40,536 nt of DNA. Origin: an uncultured Oscillospiraceae bacterium. GTDB taxonomy: Bacteria > Bacillota > Clostridia > Oscillospirales > Oscillospiraceae. Shown here piece after piece: positions 26,804 to 34,897 of the stretch. Made by a program: the position numbers and the translations under genes. Numbering within the stretch: position 1 is the stretch's first letter; each line of letters starts with the position of its first letter. Under the pieces are notes generated by a model. The model was given only the letters and a program-made list of their open reading frames with translations. It was not told where the DNA came from and made no database searches. Location: contig CAJOIC010000003.1 in assembly GCA_905234625.1 (NCBI GenBank), forward strand, positions 88,180 through 128,715, written 5' to 3'.

Positions 26804-28749
26804 ATGGAACACACATTAGAAAGCTATAACGAACTGGTAGAGCGCCTGCTGGCCCTCTCCGTGGCGTACTACGATAACGACGCGCCGCTGGTCTCCGATT
26901 TCGAGTACGATCGGATGAACAACGAGCTCAAGAAAATGGAGGCGGAGCATCCCGAGTGGATCCGGCCCGATTCGCCCACTCAGCATGTGGGCGGCCATGT
27001 GAGCGACGCTTTCGCTCCCGTGGTCCATGAGGTGCCTCTGGAGAGCTTGGCGGACGTGTTCTCCTTCGAGGAAGTGGCAGGCTTCGTAGCCCGGATGGAT
27101 GAGGCTGTGCAGGCGCCCCACGACTATGTCACCGAGCCGAAGATCGACGGACTGTCCGTGGCTGTGGAGTATCGCGGCGGCGTCTTTTACCGCGGCGCCA
27201 CCCGGGGAAACGGCGAGGTGGGGGAGGATGTGACGGAAAACCTCCGTACCATCCGCAGTCTGCCGAAGAAGCTGATAAACGCTCCGGAGCGAGTCATCGT
27301 CCGGGGCGAGGTGTATATGTCACACGAGGCGTTCAACACCATCAACGCCCAGCGGGAGATAGAAGGGGAGCAGCCTCTGGCAAATCCCCGGAACGCCGCC
27401 GCCGGATCCCTGCGTCAGCAGGACCCCGCCGTGTGCGCACAGCGTATGCTGGACGTGGTGTTTTTCAATATCCAACTGGCGGAGGGAGCGTCGTATTCGA
27501 ACCACTTCGAGACGCTGGAGGCCATGGCGGCCATGGGTCTTCCCGTGGTGCCCCACACCCTGTGCCGCACAGCGGAGGAGTGCGTCGATACCATCGAGCG
27601 CATCGGCGAAGGCAGGGAGGGCTATGCCTATGATATCGACGGCGCTGTGGTGAAGCTCAACGACCTCTCCCAGCGGGAGACGCTGGGCAGTACGGCCAAG
27701 TATCCCCGCTGGGCCGTGGCGTACAAATACCCGCCGGAGAAAAAACCCAGCAAGGTGGTGGATATCCTGGTGCAGGTGGGCCGCACCGGCGTGCTGACCC
27801 CCAAGGCCGTCATCGAACCCATCCGCCTTGCCGGAACAACGGTGACGAACGCCACGCTCCACAACCAGGATTTCATCGAAAACCTGAATGTGAACATCGG
27901 CGATACGGTCCTTGTCCAGAAAGCGGGAGAGATCATACCCGAGGTGCTGGAGGTGGTGAAGAAGGACAGCGTGGATTTCTTCCGCCTGCCCTCCGTGTGT
28001 CCTGCCTGCGGTGCGCCTGTGGAGCGGGATATAGACGGCGCCGCTATCCGGTGCACCGGCGCGGAATGCCCTTCGCCTCCAAGGAGGCCATGGATATCGA
28101 CGGACTCGGCCCTGCCGCAGTAGAGGCTCTGGATAAGCTGGGCCTTATTCGCACTCCTGCGGAGCTTTACGGTCTGGACGCTCAGTCCGTGGCTACGGCG
28201 GATCGTATGGGCAAGAAGTCCGCGGAGAACCTCATCGCCGCCATCGAGGCCAGTAAGACCCAGGGCCTGGCAAGGCTCCTGTGCGCCTTCGGCATCCGTC
28301 AGGTGGGTTCCAAAGCGGGGAAGGTCCTGGCCCGGCGGTTTGCCAGCCTCGACGAGCTCATGGCTGCGACGGAGGAGGAGTTGACCGCCATCGACGATAT
28401 CGGTCCCGTTACCGCGCGGTATATCACCGAGTGGTTCGGCAGCGTGCAGAGCCGCCACCAGATCGAGCTGCTGCGGGCGGCGGGCGTCTCCTTCGACAGC
28501 GCGGAGGAGGTGGCTGACAGCCGCTTTGCCGGGAAGACCTTTGTGCTGACGGGAACGCTGGAGACCCTCACCCGCGCAGAGGCGGAGGCCATCATCGAGC
28601 GATTTGGCGGCAAGGCCTCCGGATCGGTCTCCAAGAAGACCAGCTACGTTCTGGCGGGAGCAAACCCAGGCTCCAAGCTCACCAAGGCCGAGGGTCTGGG
28701 CATCCCCATCATTTCGGAAGAGGATTTCCGCGTCATGACGGCGGAATGA
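26804..28749 (+). pseudogene. ligA: NAD-dependent DNA ligase LigA, split by a frame-shifting gap
   Basis: LigA seals nicks using NAD and is normally essential. The first frame (26804-28123) has the adenylation lysine K113 in EPKIDGLS, ATRGNGEVGEDVT and the start of the zinc finger (CPACG ... RCTGAECP). The second frame, open from 28072 to 28749, continues at FASKEAMDIDGLG through the helix-hairpin-helix repeats to a BRCT domain (FAGKTFVLTGTLETLT). Between ECP (28067-28071) and FASKEAM the usual nine residues (AQ......H) are absent. A loss of 28 bases at 28071/28072 explains both the missing residues and the shift, and would restore 657 residues, the normal length. Either a real mutation or a sequence or assembly error. 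Confidence 0.9.
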
Positions 28750-28763
28750 TCCTGTAACAACAT

Positions 28764-28805
28764 AGATCCCCCTTTGCATAGAATGACATGCAAAGGGGGA
28801 AATCT
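28764..28805 (+). promoter_or_regulatory. Strong hairpin covering the ribosome-binding site of the cotJ operon, with a CATAGAAT box
   Basis: CCCCCTTTGCAT (28768-28779) pairs perfectly with ATGCAAAGGGGG (28788-28799), loop of 8. AGAT before and ATCT after can extend it around a 2-base bulge. The right arm carries the Shine-Dalgarno GGGGGA 7 bases before the TTG start. CATAGAAT (28777-28784) differs by one base from the sigma-E -10 consensus CATACAAT; cotJ is a sigma-E operon in Bacillus. The T run after the stem means it could also end ligA transcription. Confidence 0.6.
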
Positions 28806-28807
28806 TT

Positions 28808-29254
28808 TTGGCAAACAAAAATGAATGCACATATAAACAGGGAACGCTGCCCATGTGCGCGCCTTTGGCCTTGGGCACGATCCCTGCGCAGCAGAGCGCG
28901 GAGCCTGCCTATGACAAGGACCAGGCGCTGGTAAAGGGCACGCTGTTCCCGGGGCTTGACCTGCCCTTCAAGGACTATGTGGCGGCCGGTACGCTGGAGG
29001 ACACGCCGCAGTATGAGCTCATGGCGCTGGATTTCGTCACCCAGGAGCTGGCGCTTTATCTGGATACCCACGCCGACGACAAGGAGGCGTTCGAAACCTG
29101 GAAATGCTTCACGGAGCTTGCCAAGGAGGGACGCCGTCGGTATGCGGAGAGAAACGGTCCGCTCAAGCGCTCTCAGACCGCGATGTTCGACAGCTGGGTG
29201 TGGACAGATGAGCCCTGGCCGTGGGAGTTTCTCGGCAATGGAGGTAACGGCTGA
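28808..29254 (+). CDS. Fused CotJA-CotJB spore-coat protein
   Basis: A 148-residue protein that joins two coat proteins usually encoded separately. Residues about 14-58 match CotJA (MCAPLALGTIPAQQ, then YDKDQALVKGTLFPGLDLPF). Residues about 65-143 match CotJB (YELMALDFVTQELALYLDTH, then ERNGPLKRS and the end WVWTDEPWPWEF). In Bacillus CotJA, CotJB and CotJC form part of the inner coat. The start is TTG 28808, 7 bases after GGGGGA. The stop overlaps the cotJC start, so the proteins are made together. Confidence 0.88.
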   Translation: MANKNECTYKQGTLPMCAPLALGTIPAQQSAEPAYDKDQALVKGTLFPGLDLPFKDYVAAGTLEDTPQYELMALDFVTQELALYLDTHADDKEAFETWKCFTELAKEGRRRYAERNGPLKRSQTAMFDSWVWTDEPWPWEFLGNGGNG

Positions 29255-29796
29255 TGTTTATATATGAGAAGAAACTGCAGTATCCCGTCCGCATCAAAAA
29301 CGCAAATCCCGCCCTGGCGAAATTCATCATCAGTCAATACGGTGGTCCAGACGGCGAGTTGGGCGCATCGATGCGATATTTGAGCCAGCGGTACTCCATG
29401 CCCTACCCGGAGCTGAAGACAATACTGACGGATATCGGCGTCGAGGAACTCGGCCATCTTGAAATGGTCGGCGCGATCATCCACCAGCTCACCCGGAACA
29501 TGTCCGTGGAGGATGTGAAGGCCGCCGGGATGGAGGCGTATTTCGTGGATCACACGGCTGGCGTATACGCACAGGCCGCCGCGGGGTGGCCCTACAATGC
29601 TGCGACCTTTGCCGTGAAGGGCGATGTGATCGCGGATCTGACGGAGGATATGGGCGCGGAGCAGAAGGCCCGCGTCACCTACGACAACATTCTGCGTATG
29701 TGCGACGATCCGGATGTCATCGACGTCATCCGGTTCCTGCGGGAGCGGGAGGTCGTGCACTTCCAGCGGTTCGGCGAGGCGGTACAATCAAGGTGA
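29254..29796 (+). CDS. cotJC: CotJC spore-coat manganese-catalase-like protein, 5' part, interrupted by a mobile element
   Basis: CotJC belongs to the ferritin-like manganese catalase family. The part here reads 180 residues: metal-binding helices around GPDGELGASMRYLSQRY, DIGVEELGHLEMV, LTEDMGAEQKARVTYDNILR and FLREREVVHFQRFGEA. After codon 176 (ending at 29781) the natural frame is cut off and only VQSR from the element is added before a stop. The missing C-terminus lies at 33547-33615. Joined at the 11-bp repeat the protein has 198 residues, close to the usual CotJC length. The truncated form keeps the four-helix core and might fold, but lacks the conserved tail. Confidence 0.95.
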   Translation: MFIYEKKLQYPVRIKNANPALAKFIISQYGGPDGELGASMRYLSQRYSMPYPELKTILTDIGVEELGHLEMVGAIIHQLTRNMSVEDVKAAGMEAYFVDHTAGVYAQAAAGWPYNAATFAVKGDVIADLTEDMGAEQKARVTYDNILRMCDDPDVIDVIRFLREREVVHFQRFGEAVQSR

Positions 29797-29799
29797 AGT
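29771..29799 (+). other. Left attachment site (attL) of the cotJC element
   Basis: Core TCGGCGAGGCG (29771-29781) followed by the element arm G-TACAATCAA-GG-TGAAGT (29782-29799). The arm is the reverse complement of the right-end arm, apart from two central mismatches. The base pair GA at 29776-29777 lies at the centre of the dyad and is the likely crossover dinucleotide. Confidence 0.85.
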
Positions 29800-29812
29800 G
29801 AACCACAGAGCC

Positions 29813-29862
29813 GCCAACAAAAAATAACCGAGCATCGTATCCGGTACCTATGATGCTCGGTT
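29813..29862 (-). terminator. Terminator of the toxin-antitoxin operon (minus strand)
   Basis: AACCGAGCATC (29826-29836) and GATGCTCGGTT (29852-29862) form an 11-bp stem around a 15-base loop. Read on the minus strand the stem is followed by TTATTTTTTG, a good terminator tail. On the plus strand there is no T run. It lies about 110 bases past the toxin stop. Confidence 0.7.
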
Positions 29863-29972
29863 GCTTACACTCAAATGAGCATGAGTATGTTTTGCTCTTT
29901 TTCGGTTTTGTTCCTGTTTCAAAGACTAGGGTCGATGCTATGCCAAGTCCAGATGTCGATATATTATTCCTC

Positions 29973-30278
29973 TCAACAAGTGCGTGATGAATCCTGACGA
30001 CAGTCCACCACGGCGTCCAGATACACCGTCTTGTCCTCGATGAGAAACAGTGCCTTGTAGCGCTTAGCAAACAGCGCTTTGTGATAAGTATCCGACGGGA
30101 GGTTCATGTCCACCTCATAAGGGAACTGATAAGGGTTCTCCTCCAGATCACGGATGACTTTCTTGAAATCATCCCGAAATTGTTTTGCCGCCGGAACGCT
30201 GACACGCGCGAGAAACTCCACGTGGCGCAGGAGCATATTGTCTACGCGGCTGCCAAAGATCACCTTGTATTTCGGCAT
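29973..30278 (-). CDS. RelE/ParE-family toxin
   Basis: A 101-residue protein with the fold pattern of the RelE/ParE superfamily: MPKYKVIFGSRVDNMLLRHVEFL, then FRDDFKKVIRDLEENPYQFP and the core beta strands KALFAKRYKALFLIEDKTVYLDAVVD. Members either cut mRNA on ribosomes or poison gyrase; the sequence does not decide. It begins at ATG 30278, 2 bases after the antitoxin stop, with GGAG 7 bases ahead; a GTG at 30284 is too close to that site. The pair probably stabilises the element when it is a circle or when it risks loss. Confidence 0.85.
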   Translation of the reverse strand: MPKYKVIFGSRVDNMLLRHVEFLARVSVPAAKQFRDDFKKVIRDLEENPYQFPYEVDMNLPSDTYHKALFAKRYKALFLIEDKTVYLDAVVDCRQDSSRTC

Positions 30279-30280
30279 GG

Positions 30281-30571
30281 TCACTCTCCGGCTTCCGCGG
30301 CGGCGATGATCTTATCTATATCGCCCAAAACCTCATCCGCTGTCCTGCCTGTATACCCCTTCGCACGTTCTGTCTGAGCGAAAAGAAGATCGGCATAGGC
30401 AGCCTGCTCCGAATTGAGAGACAGGCTCAGCGGGACAGCCTTGTCCCGAACGATCTGCTGAAGAAACATATTGATGGTTCCATTCATGTTCATACCCAGC
30501 TGGGACAGGATGCTCTCTGCCTGGGCCTTCAGTTCCGAATCGGTGCGTATACTCATGTTGATGCTTGCCAT
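30281..30571 (-). CDS. RelB/DinJ-family antitoxin
   Basis: A 96-residue protein. The first 50 residues are a ribbon-helix-helix DNA-binding domain (SINMSIRTDSELKAQAESIL, then MNGTINMFLQQIVRDKAVPL), typical of RelB/DinJ antitoxins, which also repress their own operon. The C-terminal half, with RAKGYTGRTADEVLGDIDKI, would wrap the toxin. AGAGGTG precedes the ATG at 30571. It comes first in the operon, as usual. Confidence 0.88.
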   Translation of the reverse strand: MASINMSIRTDSELKAQAESILSQLGMNMNGTINMFLQQIVRDKAVPLSLSLNSEQAAYADLLFAQTERAKGYTGRTADEVLGDIDKIIAAAEAGE

Positions 30572-30591
30572 AATAAATCACCTCTGGCTTT

Positions 30592-30621
30592 ATTATACCC
30601 AATATTGATATACAATGTCAA
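30592..30621 (-). promoter_or_regulatory. Strong promoter and likely operator of the toxin-antitoxin operon
   Basis: On the minus strand TTGACA (30621-30616), 18 bases, TATAAT (30597-30592): both boxes are perfect. The spacer contains TTGTATATCAATATTG, an imperfect palindrome that could be the antitoxin operator. Confidence 0.8.
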
Positions 30622-30868
30622 TACAAATGCGAACAACCAAAGGGCCGACTTCACCTGCAAAGTTAAATTCTAGCGCGAACTAGAAGTTGGTTTTGCAAAT
30701 TGTGTCCTGGAATTTAGGTCTTGCAAACGAGTGTATCAACCTTTTTGGCATAAGGCAAGGTGGTGCTACCCCACGTCCTTCTTTGTTCTTACGACGATGA
30801 AACGTGTGATAATTCCTTTGCTGTATAACAAATCTGAGATTCCGGCCCTCCTATAGGCAGATTGCATA
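30622..30868. other. Non-coding stretch of the element with a small inverted repeat
   Basis: No convincing gene on either strand. TTCTAG (30668-30673) and CTAGAA (30680-30685) form a 6-bp inverted repeat. Base composition is clearly more AT-rich than the host genes around the element. The position, between the toxin-antitoxin promoter and the iteron-like repeats ahead of a relaxase remnant, would suit a degraded transfer or replication origin, but no known origin motif is recognised. Confidence 0.4.
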
Positions 30869-30957
30869 TTTCGCTTCAACGGTCCACGCATTTCGTTTGA
30901 AACGGTCTGGCGGTTTCGGATGAACGGTCTATGGCTTTCGAACCAACGGTCTGCGTG
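30869..30957 (+). repeat. Four tandem 22-bp iteron-like repeats
   Basis: Units start at 30869, 30891, 30914 and 30936, with lengths 22, 23, 22 and 22. Each has TTTCG, 4-6 variable bases, then AACGGTC and 6-7 variable bases. The period equals two DNA turns, so a protein could bind the same face of each unit. This is the layout of replication iterons or of binding sites for an accessory factor. Confidence 0.75.
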
Positions 30958-30962
30958 ATAGA

Positions 30963-31625
30963 GTGTTTCTTGTAGTCCACTACAAGAAAGGAGCTCAATC
31001 ATGCAAGACTAAGCTGAAGAAGGAGCAGGACAAGTATGACGCGGAAAACATTGCCACGCTCCTCAACACCTACTATGACCGCCGTAATGCCGGGGCATAC
31101 AGCCAGAAGGCGCGAGCGAACAATTTCAAGAAGCAGGTGGAGACATTCAACTACTTACAGGCCAAGGGCATCAACACCCTGGATGACTTAAAGGAAGCTG
31201 CTTCCCAAATGGGCGACCAGGTCAGCGATATGACGAAGTCGCTCAGAACGGATGAGGCTCGAGCAAGAGAGTTGACCGACCTTATTCGATACGCGGAAAA
31301 CTACCAACGGATCAAGCCTATCTACGATGAGATGAACGGCATCCAATGGAAGAAGAAACGAGAGAAATACCGGCAGGAGCACGACGGTGAACTGCGGCTG
31401 TTCTATCTCGCCCGCCGGGAGCTGGAAGAGCAGGTCAAAGGCGGCGCGATTCCGTTGTCAGACTGGCGCAAAGAACTCAAGACACTACAGACAAAGCATA
31501 AGAAGGATTATGAGGATCTGAAGGCGATCCGTGAGGAAGCCCGTAAGCTATACAAGATCCAAAAGAATCTGGAATCAGCTCTGCACCCGGAGCGGGAACT
31601 CCGGAGTAGAGGGCCGGAACGATGA
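30963..31625 (+). pseudogene. C-terminal remnant of a relaxase/mobilisation protein
   Basis: The open frame encodes 220 residues, very basic and helical: LLNTYYDRRNAGAYSQKARA, then NNFKKQVETFNYLQAKGINT, DLIRYAENYQRIKPIYDEMN and long charged helices. This is the pattern of the C-terminal region of relaxases from clostridial conjugative transposons (Tn1549-like). The N-terminal nuclease domain with its HxHxH motif is absent, and the only good ribosome site upstream leads into a three-codon frame. Translation from GTG 30963 lacks a ribosome site. It is therefore taken as a remnant without nicking activity. Confidence 0.65.
30969..31012 (+). promoter_or_regulatory. Palindrome and an aborted translation start ahead of the relaxase remnant
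   Basis: CTTGTAGT and ACTACAAG (30969-30986) form an 8-bp palindrome with a CC centre. AAAGGAG (30987-30993) then stands 7 bases before ATG 31001, an ideal start, but the frame is ATG CAA GAC TAA, only three codons. This looks like the intact start of a lost gene fused out of frame to relaxase coding sequence by a deletion. Confidence 0.6.
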
Positions 31626-31762
31626 AAGGAGGATGATCCGGATCAAATCATCAAGATACATGCAGACACCACTTCGTAAGAATAGTCCAAGCCGCAGCGA
31701 GAATAAAGTCTATCAGGGCTTATTTGCGGCCTTTCCCCGCCAAAGGAGGTCGGTGTCTAAGC

Positions 31763-31921
31763 ATGAAATATGCCCAGTCCAATCATGTTGCCCAAATCGG
31801 GAATAAGACAATTACGGTTCGTAACCTGACGCCTGTGTTTGTCAGCCGGGACGAAAAAAAAGACACCAAAGACAAGATCGAAAAAGGCTTATACGATATT
31901 TTTAAAAAATATATACCTTGA
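31763..31921 (+). CDS. 52-residue protein upstream of the recombinase (candidate directionality factor)
   Basis: A small basic protein, starting MKYAQSNHVAQIGNKTITVR and ending with a charged helix (EKKDTKDKIEKGLYDIFKKY). The AAAGGAGG site at 31742-31749 is 13 bases before the ATG, a long gap, so translation may be weak. Similar small frames sit directly ahead of serine recombinases in clostridial elements. By position and size it could be the excision (recombination directionality) factor, as SprB of about 58 residues is for SPbeta. No homology to a known directionality factor is claimed. Confidence 0.6.
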   Translation: MKYAQSNHVAQIGNKTITVRNLTPVFVSRDEKKDTKDKIEKGLYDIFKKYIP

Positions 31922-31968
31922 GCTTTTGGAGCCGCCACGCTATAATGTAGCCGTTGGCGGCTCTTTTT
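31918..31968 (+). promoter_or_regulatory. Recombinase promoter whose -10 box lies in the loop of a terminator hairpin
   Basis: GAGCCGCCA (31929-31937) and TGGCGGCTC (31955-31963) form a 9-bp stem followed by TTTTT (31964-31968), a terminator for RNA coming from upstream. In the loop lies TATAAT (31941-31946), and TTGAGC (31918-31923) stands 17 bases before it. Transcription from this promoter would start near 31953, beyond the left arm, so it escapes the terminator. Confidence 0.7.
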
Positions 31969-31989
31969 CTAAAGAAAGGAAAGAGCCAA

Positions 31990-33507
31990 ATGGAAAAATA
32001 TGACGCCATATATGGCAGGCAGTCTGTAGACCGGGCCGACAGCATCAGTATCGAGAGCCAGATAGAGTACTGCCAATACGAAATCAGAGGAGGTACATAC
32101 AAGACCTTTACGGACAAAGGTTACAGCGGAAAAAACACAGACCGCCCTCAGTTTCAGGCGATGATGGAAGCCATACGACGCGGTGAGATCCGCCGAGTCA
32201 TCGTGTACAAGCTGGATCGGATCAGCCGCTCTATTCTGGACTTTGCCACAATGATGGCCGAGTTTCAGGAATACGGCGTGGAATTTGTCTCCTGTACGGA
32301 GAAGTTCGATACCTCAACCCCTATGGGCCGAGCCATGCTGAATATCTGCATTGTATTCGCGCAGCTCGAGCGCGAGACCATCCAAATGCGCGTAGAGGAC
32401 GCCTATATCTCCCGCAGCCGCAGAGGATTCTACATGGGAGGGCGCATACCATACGGATACAAACTGGAGCCGCATATGATCGACGGGAAAAAGACGTCCC
32501 GCTATGGAATTGACCCCGCCGAGGCCGAGATCGTGAAGCTGATCTTCTCCATGTATGCCGAGCCGCAGACATCCTATGGCGATATCGTCCGCTACCTCAC
32601 AGAAAACGGTATCCAGAACGACCGCACGAAAAACGGAGTGTGGGATCGTTGCCGTATCGCGGAGATGGTCAAGAACCCGGTCTATGTCAAAGCCGACCTG
32701 AACATCTATCGGTTTTATAAGGATCAGGGAACGGTCATCCACAACAGCCCGGAGGATTTTGTCGGCATCTTTGGTTGCTATCTGTACTCGGACAAGAACG
32801 CCGGACGAAAGCAGACGACGCTGGAGGGACAGCACATCGTCCTCGCTCCTCACGAGGGGATCGTTTCATCCGATGTATGGCTGAAAGCACGCTTGAAGTG
32901 CCTCGGCAATAAGCAGGTGGCAAAGCCTCTCAAGGCCAAGAACACATGGCTGGCTGGGAAGATCAAATGCGGCAAATGCGGCTATGCGCTGACGATCAAA
33001 AAGGCAAAGACGAGGATCGGACGGTACTTCATATGCAGCAGCCGGATGCAGACGCACCGCTGCGAGGGCGTGGGCGGCATCGACGCCACTGCCTTTGAAA
33101 ACCTGATCCTAGCCGAGATGACTGACCACCTGACGCAGTTTGAAACGCTGAAGGCTCCGCAGGAGCAGGCCGAGAACCCCCGTATCTACGAGATCAGTGT
33201 GAAGCTCGAGCAAATCACGGCCGAGATCGAAAAACTGATGGACAAGGTGGCCGACGCGGACGAGTTGATGATGGAGTACATAAACCGCCGTATCCACGAG
33301 CTGGACGCGCAGGCAAACGATCTTCGTCAGGAACTGAAGGAACTGTCGCCGCTGGAAAACCAAAATCGATGTGATCTCACCGAGCTTCGGGGTTATATGT
33401 CCCATTGGGAGGAGCTGTCCTTTGATGACAAACGCGCCGTCGTCGATCAGCTGATCGCGCGGATCAGCGCCACGGAGGACACATGCGAGATCGAATGGAA
33501 GATATGA
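31990..33507 (+). CDS. Large serine recombinase of the cotJC element
   Basis: A 505-residue site-specific recombinase. The N-terminal resolvase domain (about 4-150) has the catalytic serine S12 in YGRQSVD, the IESQIEYC motif, YKLDRISRSILDF and FAQLERETIQ. The recombinase domain (about 155-265) starts GGRIPYGYKLEP. A zinc ribbon has C327 and C330 (IKCGKCGYAL) with C349 and C358. A coiled-coil stretch (about 395-450) ends the protein, as in large serine integrases. ATG 31990 follows AAAGGAAAG. The gene reads in the same direction as cotJC and ends 28 bases from the right attachment core, the usual place for an integrase beside its att site. Related to SpoIVCA-type and transposon recombinases. 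Confidence 0.95.
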   Translation: MEKYDAIYGRQSVDRADSISIESQIEYCQYEIRGGTYKTFTDKGYSGKNTDRPQFQAMMEAIRRGEIRRVIVYKLDRISRSILDFATMMAEFQEYGVEFVSCTEKFDTSTPMGRAMLNICIVFAQLERETIQMRVEDAYISRSRRGFYMGGRIPYGYKLEPHMIDGKKTSRYGIDPAEAEIVKLIFSMYAEPQTSYGDIVRYLTENGIQNDRTKNGVWDRCRIAEMVKNPVYVKADLNIYRFYKDQGTVIHNSPEDFVGIFGCYLYSDKNAGRKQTTLEGQHIVLAPHEGIVSSDVWLKARLKCLGNKQVAKPLKAKNTWLAGKIKCGKCGYALTIKKAKTRIGRYFICSSRMQTHRCEGVGGIDATAFENLILAEMTDHLTQFETLKAPQEQAENPRIYEISVKLEQITAEIEKLMDKVADADELMMEYINRRIHELDAQANDLRQELKELSPLENQNRCDLTELRGYMSHWEELSFDDKRAVVDQLIARISATEDTCEIEWKI

Positions 33508-33518
33508 CACATACACAT

Positions 33519-33546
33519 ACTTCATGTTGATTGTATCGGCGAGGCG
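33519..33546 (+). other. Right attachment site (attR) of the cotJC element
   Basis: Element arm ACTTCA-TG-TTGATTGTA (33519-33535) followed by the core TCGGCGAGGCG (33536-33546). Joined to the left arm, the circle would carry ACTTCA-N2-TTGATTGTA-N12-TACAATCAA-N2-TGAAGT, a 15-of-17 dyad about the centre GA. Confidence 0.88.
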
Positions 33547-33615
33547 CTCCGCCTGGCCACGGACAGGATGGACGAGAGAAACGTCTACGCCATGAACCCG
33601 GCCTTCGATATGTAA
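33536..33615 (+). pseudogene. cotJC: 3' part of cotJC, separated from its start by the element
   Basis: From 33547 the 22 codons LRLATDRMDERNVYAMNPAFDM followed by TAA encode the conserved CotJC tail. There is no start codon or ribosome site of its own, so it can only be expressed after excision of the element. The reading frame is intact with no stop or shift, which argues for continued selection or recent insertion. Confidence 0.93.
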
Positions 33616-33617
33616 AA

Positions 33618-33648
33618 GAATCCCCCGTGCGATCATGCACGGGGGTTC
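33618..33648. terminator. Bidirectional terminator between cotJC and the phosphofructokinase gene
   Basis: CCCCCGTGC (33622-33630) and GCACGGGGG (33637-33645) form a 9-bp stem; GAA and TTC outside extend it past one bulge. Tails are only moderately T-rich on either strand. It lies between two convergent genes. Confidence 0.75.
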
Positions 33649-33658
33649 AATGTTTCTA

Positions 33659-34897
33659 TCAGGCTTTGATCTTCCTGAGCTTTGCGTAGCGAGGGAGAGA
33701 GCACTCGGTGGGACGTTCCGGAGCACCCTGGATGAGGGGCAGAACGTAGTCGATGAACTCGTCGGTAACGAAGTTGCCCTCCGGGGTGATCCACTCCAGG
33801 GGGACCTTCTTCTCGGCGTTCGCCACGGCGGTGAGGGGGATGAGCTTCGTTTTGCAGACGTACTCGCCGTTCTCCTCGGCGCGCTCAAAGGCGACCATCT
33901 TGCCGGTCTCGCCGGCAATGGCGCTCTCCACGGCGATGCGTCCGGCCAGCTCCGCCTCGTCCACGTCGGCCTTGGAGGCCAGGTGGGCGCCGCAGCGCTG
34001 GAGAAGAGACAGCTCGATGGCGCGGGTCTTCACGTCGAGCTTCGCTTTGACGGCGTCCGCCAGACGGGAGGCGAGACCGCCCAGCTGGGCGTGACCGAAG
34101 CCGTCGGTGGAGCTGGCCTTCGCTTCGGAGACAAAGGTGCCGTCCGCGAAATGGACGCCCTCGGACACGGCAACGAGGCAGTTGCCCTTGGCCTTATAGA
34201 CCGTCTCCACGTCCGCGAGGAACTTGTCCATATCGAAGTCCAGCTCCGGCAGATACACGAGATCGGGACCCGCGCCGAAGCGGGAGCCTACGGCGGCGGA
34301 GCCTGCCAGCCATCCGGCGTGACGTCCCATGATCTCCATGATGGTCACCTGCCCGGTCGGGTAGACGCGGCTGTCGCAGGAGACCTCCATGCAGCTGGTG
34401 GCGATATATTTTGCCGCAGAGGCAAAGCCGGGGCAGTGGTCGGTGCCCACCAGGTCATTGTCGATGGTCTTGGGGATGCCCATGACACGGCATTCCCAGC
34501 CGGACTTGGCCATGAAGCGGCTGATCTTGTCGCAGGTGTCCATGGAGTCGTTGCCGCCGTTATAGAAGAAGTAGCGGACGTTGTGCTTCTTGAACATCTC
34601 GAGGATTGTCTTATAATCGGTGTCGTCCACGTCGGGATCGGCGAGCTTATAGCGGCAGGAGCCCAGCTCGGAGGAGGGGGTGTTCTTCAGAAGCGCCAGC
34701 TCCGCGGGGTCCTCCAGACCCATATCATAGAGCTTATCGCCCAGAACGCCGGTGATACCGTGGTCCGCGCCGAGGACCTGGGTGATCTCTTCGGCGGCGA
34801 GAGCGGCGGAGATGGCGCCGTAAGCGCTGGAGTTGATAACGGAGGTGGGACCTCCGGACTGACCGATGATGCATGCGCCGATAAGTTTATCAGCCAT
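33659..34897 (-). CDS. pfp: 6-phosphofructokinase, PPi-dependent type
   Basis: A 412-residue phosphofructokinase acting at the committed step of glycolysis. GQSGGPTSVINSS is the N-terminal phosphate loop. The motifs YNGGNDSMDT and GIPKTIDNDLVGTDHCPGF mark the type: an acidic residue after GGN and a lysine in PKTIDND are features of enzymes that use pyrophosphate, whereas ATP enzymes have GGDGS and PGTIDND. MEIMGRHAGWLAG and the fructose-phosphate binding region follow. The use of PPi is inferred from these residues. GGAGGAAAA lies ahead of the ATG on the minus strand. It is divergent from the aldolase gene. Confidence 0.9.
   Translation of the reverse strand: MADKLIGACIIGQSGGPTSVINSSAYGAISAALAAEEITQVLGADHGITGVLGDKLYDMGLEDPAELALLKNTPSSELGSCRYKLADPDVDDTDYKTILEMFKKHNVRYFFYNGGNDSMDTCDKISRFMAKSGWECRVMGIPKTIDNDLVGTDHCPGFASAAKYIATSCMEVSCDSRVYPTGQVTIMEIMGRHAGWLAGSAAVGSRFGAGPDLVYLPELDFDMDKFLADVETVYKAKGNCLVAVSEGVHFADGTFVSEAKASSTDGFGHAQLGGLASRLADAVKAKLDVKTRAIELSLLQRCGAHLASKADVDEAELAGRIAVESAIAGETGKMVAFERAEENGEYVCKTKLIPLTAVANAEKKVPLEWITPEGNFVTDEFIDYVLPLIQGAPERPTECSLPRYAKLRKIKA

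Follow-up and report, generated by a model that had tools for sequence, protein, structure and literature searches.

A serine-recombinase element splits the spore-coat gene cotJC at one of four recurrent break sites in Oscillospiraceae

The spore-coat gene cotJC of an uncultured Oscillospiraceae bacterium is divided by a 3.77-kb element carrying its own large serine recombinase (LSR). The split lies in a stretch of 40,536 nucleotides (hereafter the window; GenBank assembly GCA_905234625.1, contig CAJOIC010000003.1, positions 88,180 to 128,715), which belongs to a metagenome-assembled genome (MAG) of 118 contigs that is 82% complete. Of the family genomes with a cotJC match, about a third (82 of 237, the window included) have it split, at four recurrent sites, A to D, with separate clades of recombinases. 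It is likely that the window's element is a decayed mobilizable element which integrated itself at site D of cotJC by its own LSR, and which works as a gene-intervening element, being excised in the mother cell.

The split gene and its junctions

The cotJ operon of the window is complete, and an open reading frame (ORF) for a fused CotJA-CotJB protein lies immediately 5' of cotJC. The split gene and its junctions are laid out as follows.

28808..29251, + strand: fused CotJA-CotJB, upstream gene of the cotJ operon (PF12652, E 4e-22; PF11007, E 5e-10)
29254..29781, + strand: cotJC 5' piece, codons 1-176 (PF05067 Mn_catalase, E 4.6e-50); the ORF stop is at 29796
29771..29791, + strand: left junction; 11-bp core at 29771-29781, then G, then the arm TACAATCAA at 29783-29791
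33527..33546, + strand: right junction; arm TTGATTGTA at 33527-33535, core at 33536-33546
33547..33615, + strand: cotJC 3' piece, codons 177-198 plus stop, from the join and the orthologue alignment

As interrupted, the 5' piece is a 180-amino-acid (aa) ORF made up of 176 native codons followed by VQSR. The 22 downstream codons occupy 33547-33612, and the stop ends at 33615. The 11-bp core, TCGGCGAGGCG, has exactly two copies on the + strand of the window (29771-29781 and 33536-33546); they are spaced by 3,765 bp, a multiple of three, and joining the flanks there yields an open cotJC of 198 codons. Once the element ends are rejoined, the core is enclosed by the perfect 9-bp inverted arms TTGATTGTA and TACAATCAA. 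Such a short repeat goes beyond chance here, because only here can the two parts of a conserved gene be joined in frame, and because the arms flank the core.

Uninterrupted orthologues align with the joined product over residues 1-197 without gaps (L071, 92% identity; L072, 91%; L002, 86%), and the possibility that the tail is not native to cotJC was rejected on this ground. L071 and L072 come from sister MAGs from red deer and have cotJC with the same tail and no element. The source MAG has one cotJC copy, which is split, and no intact copy among its contigs. A preliminary description of this DNA had placed the cut after codon 176, with a 22-codon tail 3,765 bp downstream, and had concluded that collapsing the two repeat copies gives a continuous 198-codon gene; the repeat spacing, the open frame and a join free of stops bear this out. 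It had also put an LSR beside the right end, where we find a 505-aa protein with Resolvase, Recombinase and Zn-ribbon domains. Its reliance on the 22 codons being the natural end of cotJC agrees with the gap-free alignment, and the comparison with element-free relatives that it proposed turned up the empty site in L071 and L072.

Distribution of split cotJC in the family

We searched 300 Oscillospiraceae genomes with the 198-aa joined product, which gave a match in 237. Re-examination of 104 genomes, picked for several cotJC matches or a truncated one, revealed 81 with cotJC in at least two pieces, 5 with a single truncated piece, 15 with an intact gene and 3 with a full copy plus a fragment; the remaining 132 matching genomes mostly have one full-length match, about 14 of them showing a weak or short match only. 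The 81 split genomes span 47 genera, and spoIVA was found in 76 of them. Carriers of a split cotJC include Pseudoflavonifractor phocaeensis An858 (L142/G039), in which two sites are cut, Pseudoflavonifractor sp. An184 (L148) and Negativibacillus massiliensis (L132). Breaks recur at four sites: A at about codon 30, B at about codon 61, C at about codon 134 and D at about codons 172-176. Three cotJC pieces tile two sites in 14 genomes; the raw count of genomes with at least two sites was 24, but this includes two alignment artefacts (G131, G259), a duplicate tail (G005) and some genomes that miss a piece.

Neighbouring pieces on the same contig are co-oriented and in the right order in 48 of 50 pairs, with gaps of 1.9-42.6 kb, so that contig-edge artefacts were rejected as the source of the splits. 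Two genomes depart from this: in G005 the extra pieces are duplicate tails, and in G143 the last piece has the opposite orientation. At the G005 locus (L064), the native tail is followed by two extra cotJC 3' ends with about 3 kb between them, as if site-D elements had once been stacked there; in G143 (L192, L193, L194) the third piece is inverted on the same contig, by inversion or assembly error. When 36 same-contig junctions were tested (G005 and G067 left out), the core was present on both sides in 31 and the join was in frame and stop-free in 29. The window itself was scored as a miss in this test because the pattern was too strict.

At the class level, 254 of 391 genomes had a cotJC match, and partial matches occur in other families. 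As to comparison genes, aldolase was matched in at least 274 of the 300 genomes, and among the 27 lowest-scoring ones seven had two complementary pieces (G014, G037, G040, G158, G161, G184, G212), five of these seven having a piece at a contig edge; several others show one partial piece only. For spoIVA, matched in 248 of 300 genomes with 21 re-examined, the gene is split at about codon 403 in five (G032, G089, G143, G179, G246), two of which have both pieces on one contig, 31-42 kb apart; other re-examined spoIVA genes are broken at contig edges or elsewhere. The region around codon 403 of spoIVA looks like a second recurrent target. Thus, in view of the splits in both comparison genes, cotJC is extreme, but not alone.

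Recombinases and the choice of sites

Of the 81 split genomes, 68 have an LSR no more than 2.5 kb from a junction. At an identity threshold of at least 38%, 80 of the 82 site-linked LSRs fall into single-site clusters (33 and 4 members at site B, 19 at A, 13 at D including that of the window, 11 at C), and the other two pair up, one being from site D and one unassigned. The tree, built from 77 of the 82 (those shorter than 380 aa were dropped), places the LSRs of A, C and D each on one side of a branch with support of 99-100; those of B need two clades. Thus different points of cotJC became the targets of different recombinase lineages. LSRs of these kinds also lie beside cotJC pieces on some IMG/VR contigs: a cotJC match at E < 0.5, in some cases a weak one, was present at 10 of 29 viral loci. 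At three such loci (L283, L284, L287) an LSR of the site-C type (about 68% identity) adjoins pieces of a more distant cotJC (49-53%), so the target is used outside Oscillospiraceae as well.

The four cores adjoin E35 (site A), E65/H68 (B), E136 (C) and H169 (D), each at least 98% conserved among 83 intact genes. We take these residues to correspond to the metal ligands of manganese catalase; PDB matches of CotJC include Alr3090 (E 2.2e-24) and the Lactobacillus plantarum catalase (E 3.8e-16). Among the 83 intact genes, 18-nt segments at the four cores fall at the 6th, 19th, 9th and 1st percentile of entropy, respectively. Resampling gives P of about 0.001 for such low values, a rough figure since neighbouring segments are not independent. 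The sites may therefore be tied to the conserved stretches of the gene: a recombinase needing a constant target would find one in the conserved DNA beside the metal-ligand motifs.

Selection on the pieces and a genus that keeps the element

Stop codons occur in 6 of 71 downstream pieces and in 3 of 54 upstream pieces, every one of them on the element side of the junction. The downstream pieces are cut off from promoter and start. For 35 within-genus pairs of downstream pieces, six had saturated synonymous divergence (dS) and 28 of the 29 finite ratios of nonsynonymous to synonymous rates (omega) lay between 0 and 0.13. The g54 pair shows zero nonsynonymous change in 118 codons at a proportion of synonymous differences (pS) of 0.32, and the g90 pair zero in 64 codons at a pS of 0.36. 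Pairs sharing both the site and sister LSRs include those of g43, g54 (G053/G198), g67 (G066/G145), g76, g81 (G080/G290, G209/G253), g90 and g98. On the window's own branch we count 15-19 synonymous versus 2-5 nonsynonymous codon changes, much like the 26-31 versus 3-5 on that of its uninterrupted sister L071. By these substitution patterns, purifying selection still acts on the downstream pieces in genera whose element appears to be inherited.

In genus g98, each of the five species sampled has a 3.0-3.8-kb element at site B; four of the LSRs were of sufficient length for the tree, where they make up a single long-branched clade. The long genes common to the five elements are the LSR and a pyrimidine-nucleoside phosphorylase, both lying between the cotJC halves; a second close copy of the phosphorylase was not found in the five genomes. 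Germ-line loss of the element would cost this gene, so the element is likely fixed. Consequently, excision, if any, is likely confined to a cell without descendants. Cargo in other genomes includes MobA/VirD2 relaxase and FecCD transporter genes (G072, site D), FeoB (G132), restriction-modification genes (G051) and MatE (G181). The site-D element of G072 also encodes a 1,020-aa protein with an RNA-dependent RNA polymerase domain (L055:9829-12888; PF05183, E 1e-14), and G291 has an ORF of similar length.

Contents of the window's element

Between the junctions the following features were found.

29973..30284, - strand: 103-aa ORF adjoining RelB, putative toxin by position only; no Pfam family at E 0.01, NCBIfam match at chance level only
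30281..30571, - strand: RelB/DinJ-family antitoxin (PF04221, E 8.9e-10; TIGR02384, E 7.2e-17)
30963..31622, + strand: possible remnant of a MobA/MobL relaxase gene; no Pfam match, 25% identity over 163 aa (E 1e-9) to an ORF of L069
31763..31918, + strand: 52-aa ORF, candidate directionality factor, with homologues at other loci
31918..31946, + strand: sigma-A-like promoter match before the recombinase, TTGAGC-17-TATAAT, 10 of 12 positions
31990..33507, + strand: LSR, 505 aa plus stop, reading toward the right junction (PF00239, PF07508, PF13408)

The L069 ORF that resembles the possible remnant is itself a MobA_MobL protein (E 1.5e-94). Domain-profile searches of five element ORFs found none of the phage structural gene families, and a phage origin was rejected, the nearest phage record being only 32% identical. 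A decayed mobilizable element is the description that suits it best. Tn4451-type elements (TnpX, TnpW) likewise have a small ORF beside a large serine recombinase and a mobilization gene; the 52-aa ORF of the window matched TnpW at E 0.16 only, below the cut-off. Relatives of this ORF come from six viral contigs and from eight other loci, in site-D elements or in split genomes (seven at E < 1e-3; G294 at E 0.009); the bacterial ones mostly lie directly 5' of an LSR. The ORF may be the directionality factor of the element. Six sigma-A-like matches were found in the region against 3.7 expected, so the promoter match before the LSR is weak.

Outside the element, ligA appears in two overlapping frames (26804-28123 and 27997-28749, within 26804-28749), indicating a frameshift or an assembly error. 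The cotJ operon is inverted relative to its neighbours (window 28750-33660 versus L071:6000-8200): the order is phosphofructokinase, cotJ operon, ligA in L071 and ligA, cotJ operon, phosphofructokinase in the window.

Excision and its alternatives

According to the scheme that we favour, the element would have been integrated by its own LSR at the fixed site D, and dividing cells would carry split cotJC. During sporulation, a directionality factor, for which the 52-aa ORF is the candidate, would make the recombinase excise the element in the mother cell. The 198-codon gene would thereby be rebuilt on a chromosome that is later discarded, and the forespore would keep the element. Excision itself, its timing, the cell type and the part played by the 52-aa ORF are inferred. 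Several considerations speak for excision in the mother cell: the gene is needed only there, the spore would keep the element, selection keeps both the pieces and the recombinase in working order, and there are known cases of this kind (gin, skin, SPbeta, phi3T, vfbin, yin). The preliminary description had proposed cotJC as another skin-like developmental switch, and this is supported by an anatomy that is as described and by the 82 split genomes among 237; excision and its timing remain, as there, a matter of reasoning.

A number of observations weigh against this scheme. The window's LSR is 75% identical to that of G116, from another genus, versus 60% to that of its congener G294, so the element looks independently acquired rather than long resident; it was probably a separate and recent gain, and full-length cotJC occurs in four of six sampled genomes of the window's genus. 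The 52-aa ORF is without known function, spoIVA was not found in the 82%-complete source MAG, and in 13 of the 81 split genomes no LSR was found within 2.5 kb in the retrieved sequence. The excised state was not seen in the source MAG, with its one split copy, and four patterns for rejoined element ends (circles; attP) matched 0 viral contigs. Loss of CotJC is reported to cause no apparent defect in Bacillus subtilis (PMC12122855). As for selection, the outlying downstream pair, from g78, has an omega of 0.27, partly over element sequence, and upstream pieces show weaker constraint (g78, 0.21-0.48; g40, 0.30). Moreover, dS is above 1 in many cases, and not all within-genus pairs share a split site, so that such pairs are no test of the time since one shared insertion.

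Several of these points would fit another view, namely that cotJC is a conserved, dispensable landing site, with the gene dead in its carriers and re-excision only part of the element's own transfer. Any site-specific integration leaves an exactly rejoinable gene, near-identical site-D LSRs in different genera (G017/G072 and G039/G291) speak of horizontal spread, and both the missing excised forms and the dispensability in B. subtilis agree with it. However, a dead gene predicts decay of the downstream piece, yet 0 of 71 pieces have a stop beyond the junction and all but one of the finite omegas are low, while one entire sampled genus retains the element together with both pieces. We therefore regard this view as unlikely. 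By the same token, the preliminary caveat that a plain insertion would look alike is true of the window alone, but such an insertion becomes less likely given four fixed sites, separate LSR clades and selected downstream pieces. It is about equally doubtful that excision is real without being developmental, taking place at a low rate or under stress in any cell, with a subpopulation carrying the rebuilt gene sustaining selection. The yin element in yabG is indeed reported to undergo excision at every time point in a fraction of the population (PMC10747680), and the weak sigma-A-like match before the LSR would suit such a regime; against it, the g98 element could not be lost without the only close phosphorylase copy, arguing for excision in a cell that leaves no descendants. 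Separate translation of two pieces that assemble into a split protein would account for the conservation of both, but is very improbable: the window's 3' piece has just 22 codons, an in-frame start with a Shine-Dalgarno-like motif is present in only 2 of 36 site-B downstream pieces, and up to three pieces would be required in 14 genomes. Mother-cell excision thus remains the best explanation.

It is tempting to extend mother-cell excision to a more general proposal, for and against which we see the balance as even: cotJC might serve mobile DNA in gut Oscillospiraceae as a safe harbour, with at least four LSR lineages targeting codons beside metal-ligand motifs. The doomed mother cell would then reassemble the gene, which in some species would take two excisions in succession. 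At least one genus would have the arrangement fixed, the intervening DNA being home to a host metabolic gene and terminal genome editing a regular part of spore formation there. Should excision be confirmed, the programmed rebuilding of genes during sporulation would be common among gut Firmicutes, beyond the few Bacillus and Clostridium genes, and spore-gene 'pseudogenes' annotated in MAGs may be working genes. Split cotJC would also be a means of studying why cells keep and rebuild a coat protein that seems dispensable. In addition, one 600-bp gene with four natural integration sites could supply a set of site-specific recombinases with matched sites.

Relation to known systems

The open-access literature searched (subscription papers and supplements were outside its scope) holds no description of cotJC as interrupted, consistent with the earlier remark that cotJC was not known as a described target. 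Prophage phi027 of Clostridioides difficile R20291 is reported to adjoin a CotJC-like gene (CDR20291_1465; cotG downstream of attR), and by the published description it is adjacent to the gene and does not split it (PMC11222575, PMC12122855). Mobile elements are described in other sporulation genes as well: SPbeta in spsM, phi3T in kamA, vfbin in spoVFB, the spoVR element and yin in yabG; in the accessible text of these sources, the target lists contain neither cotJC nor a target described as hit at four sites (PMC6957869, PMC10747680). Known elements of this kind are said to carry their own recombination unit and to lie nearly all in mother-cell genes (PMC6957869). A survey of site-specific LSRs describes, as here, a conserved gene that is the common target of several LSR clusters, and the words spore and catalase do not occur in its accessible main text (PMC10083194).

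The closest parallels are skin and gin. Skin in sigK of B. subtilis and C. difficile is, like the element studied here, a serine-recombinase element inside a mother-cell gene, and is reported to be removed exactly (PMC10747680, PMC6957869). Its directionality factor in C. difficile, CD1234, has 53 aa (PMC10747680, PMC6957869), a size similar to that of the window's 52-aa ORF. Unlike in skin, the target here is a coat-protein gene hit at four sites, and excision of the element is proposed. Gin in gerE of Bacillus cereus shares with the window's element its non-phage character, a serine recombinase, to which gin adds a further factor (GirX) and the window's element a candidate one, and a short repeat core (PMC5595907). 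Gin is also reported to have been placed at amyE of the laboratory strain B. subtilis 168. However, gin is reported to span 28.6 kb and to have three recombinases (PMC5595907), whereas the window's element has one recombinase in 3.77 kb.

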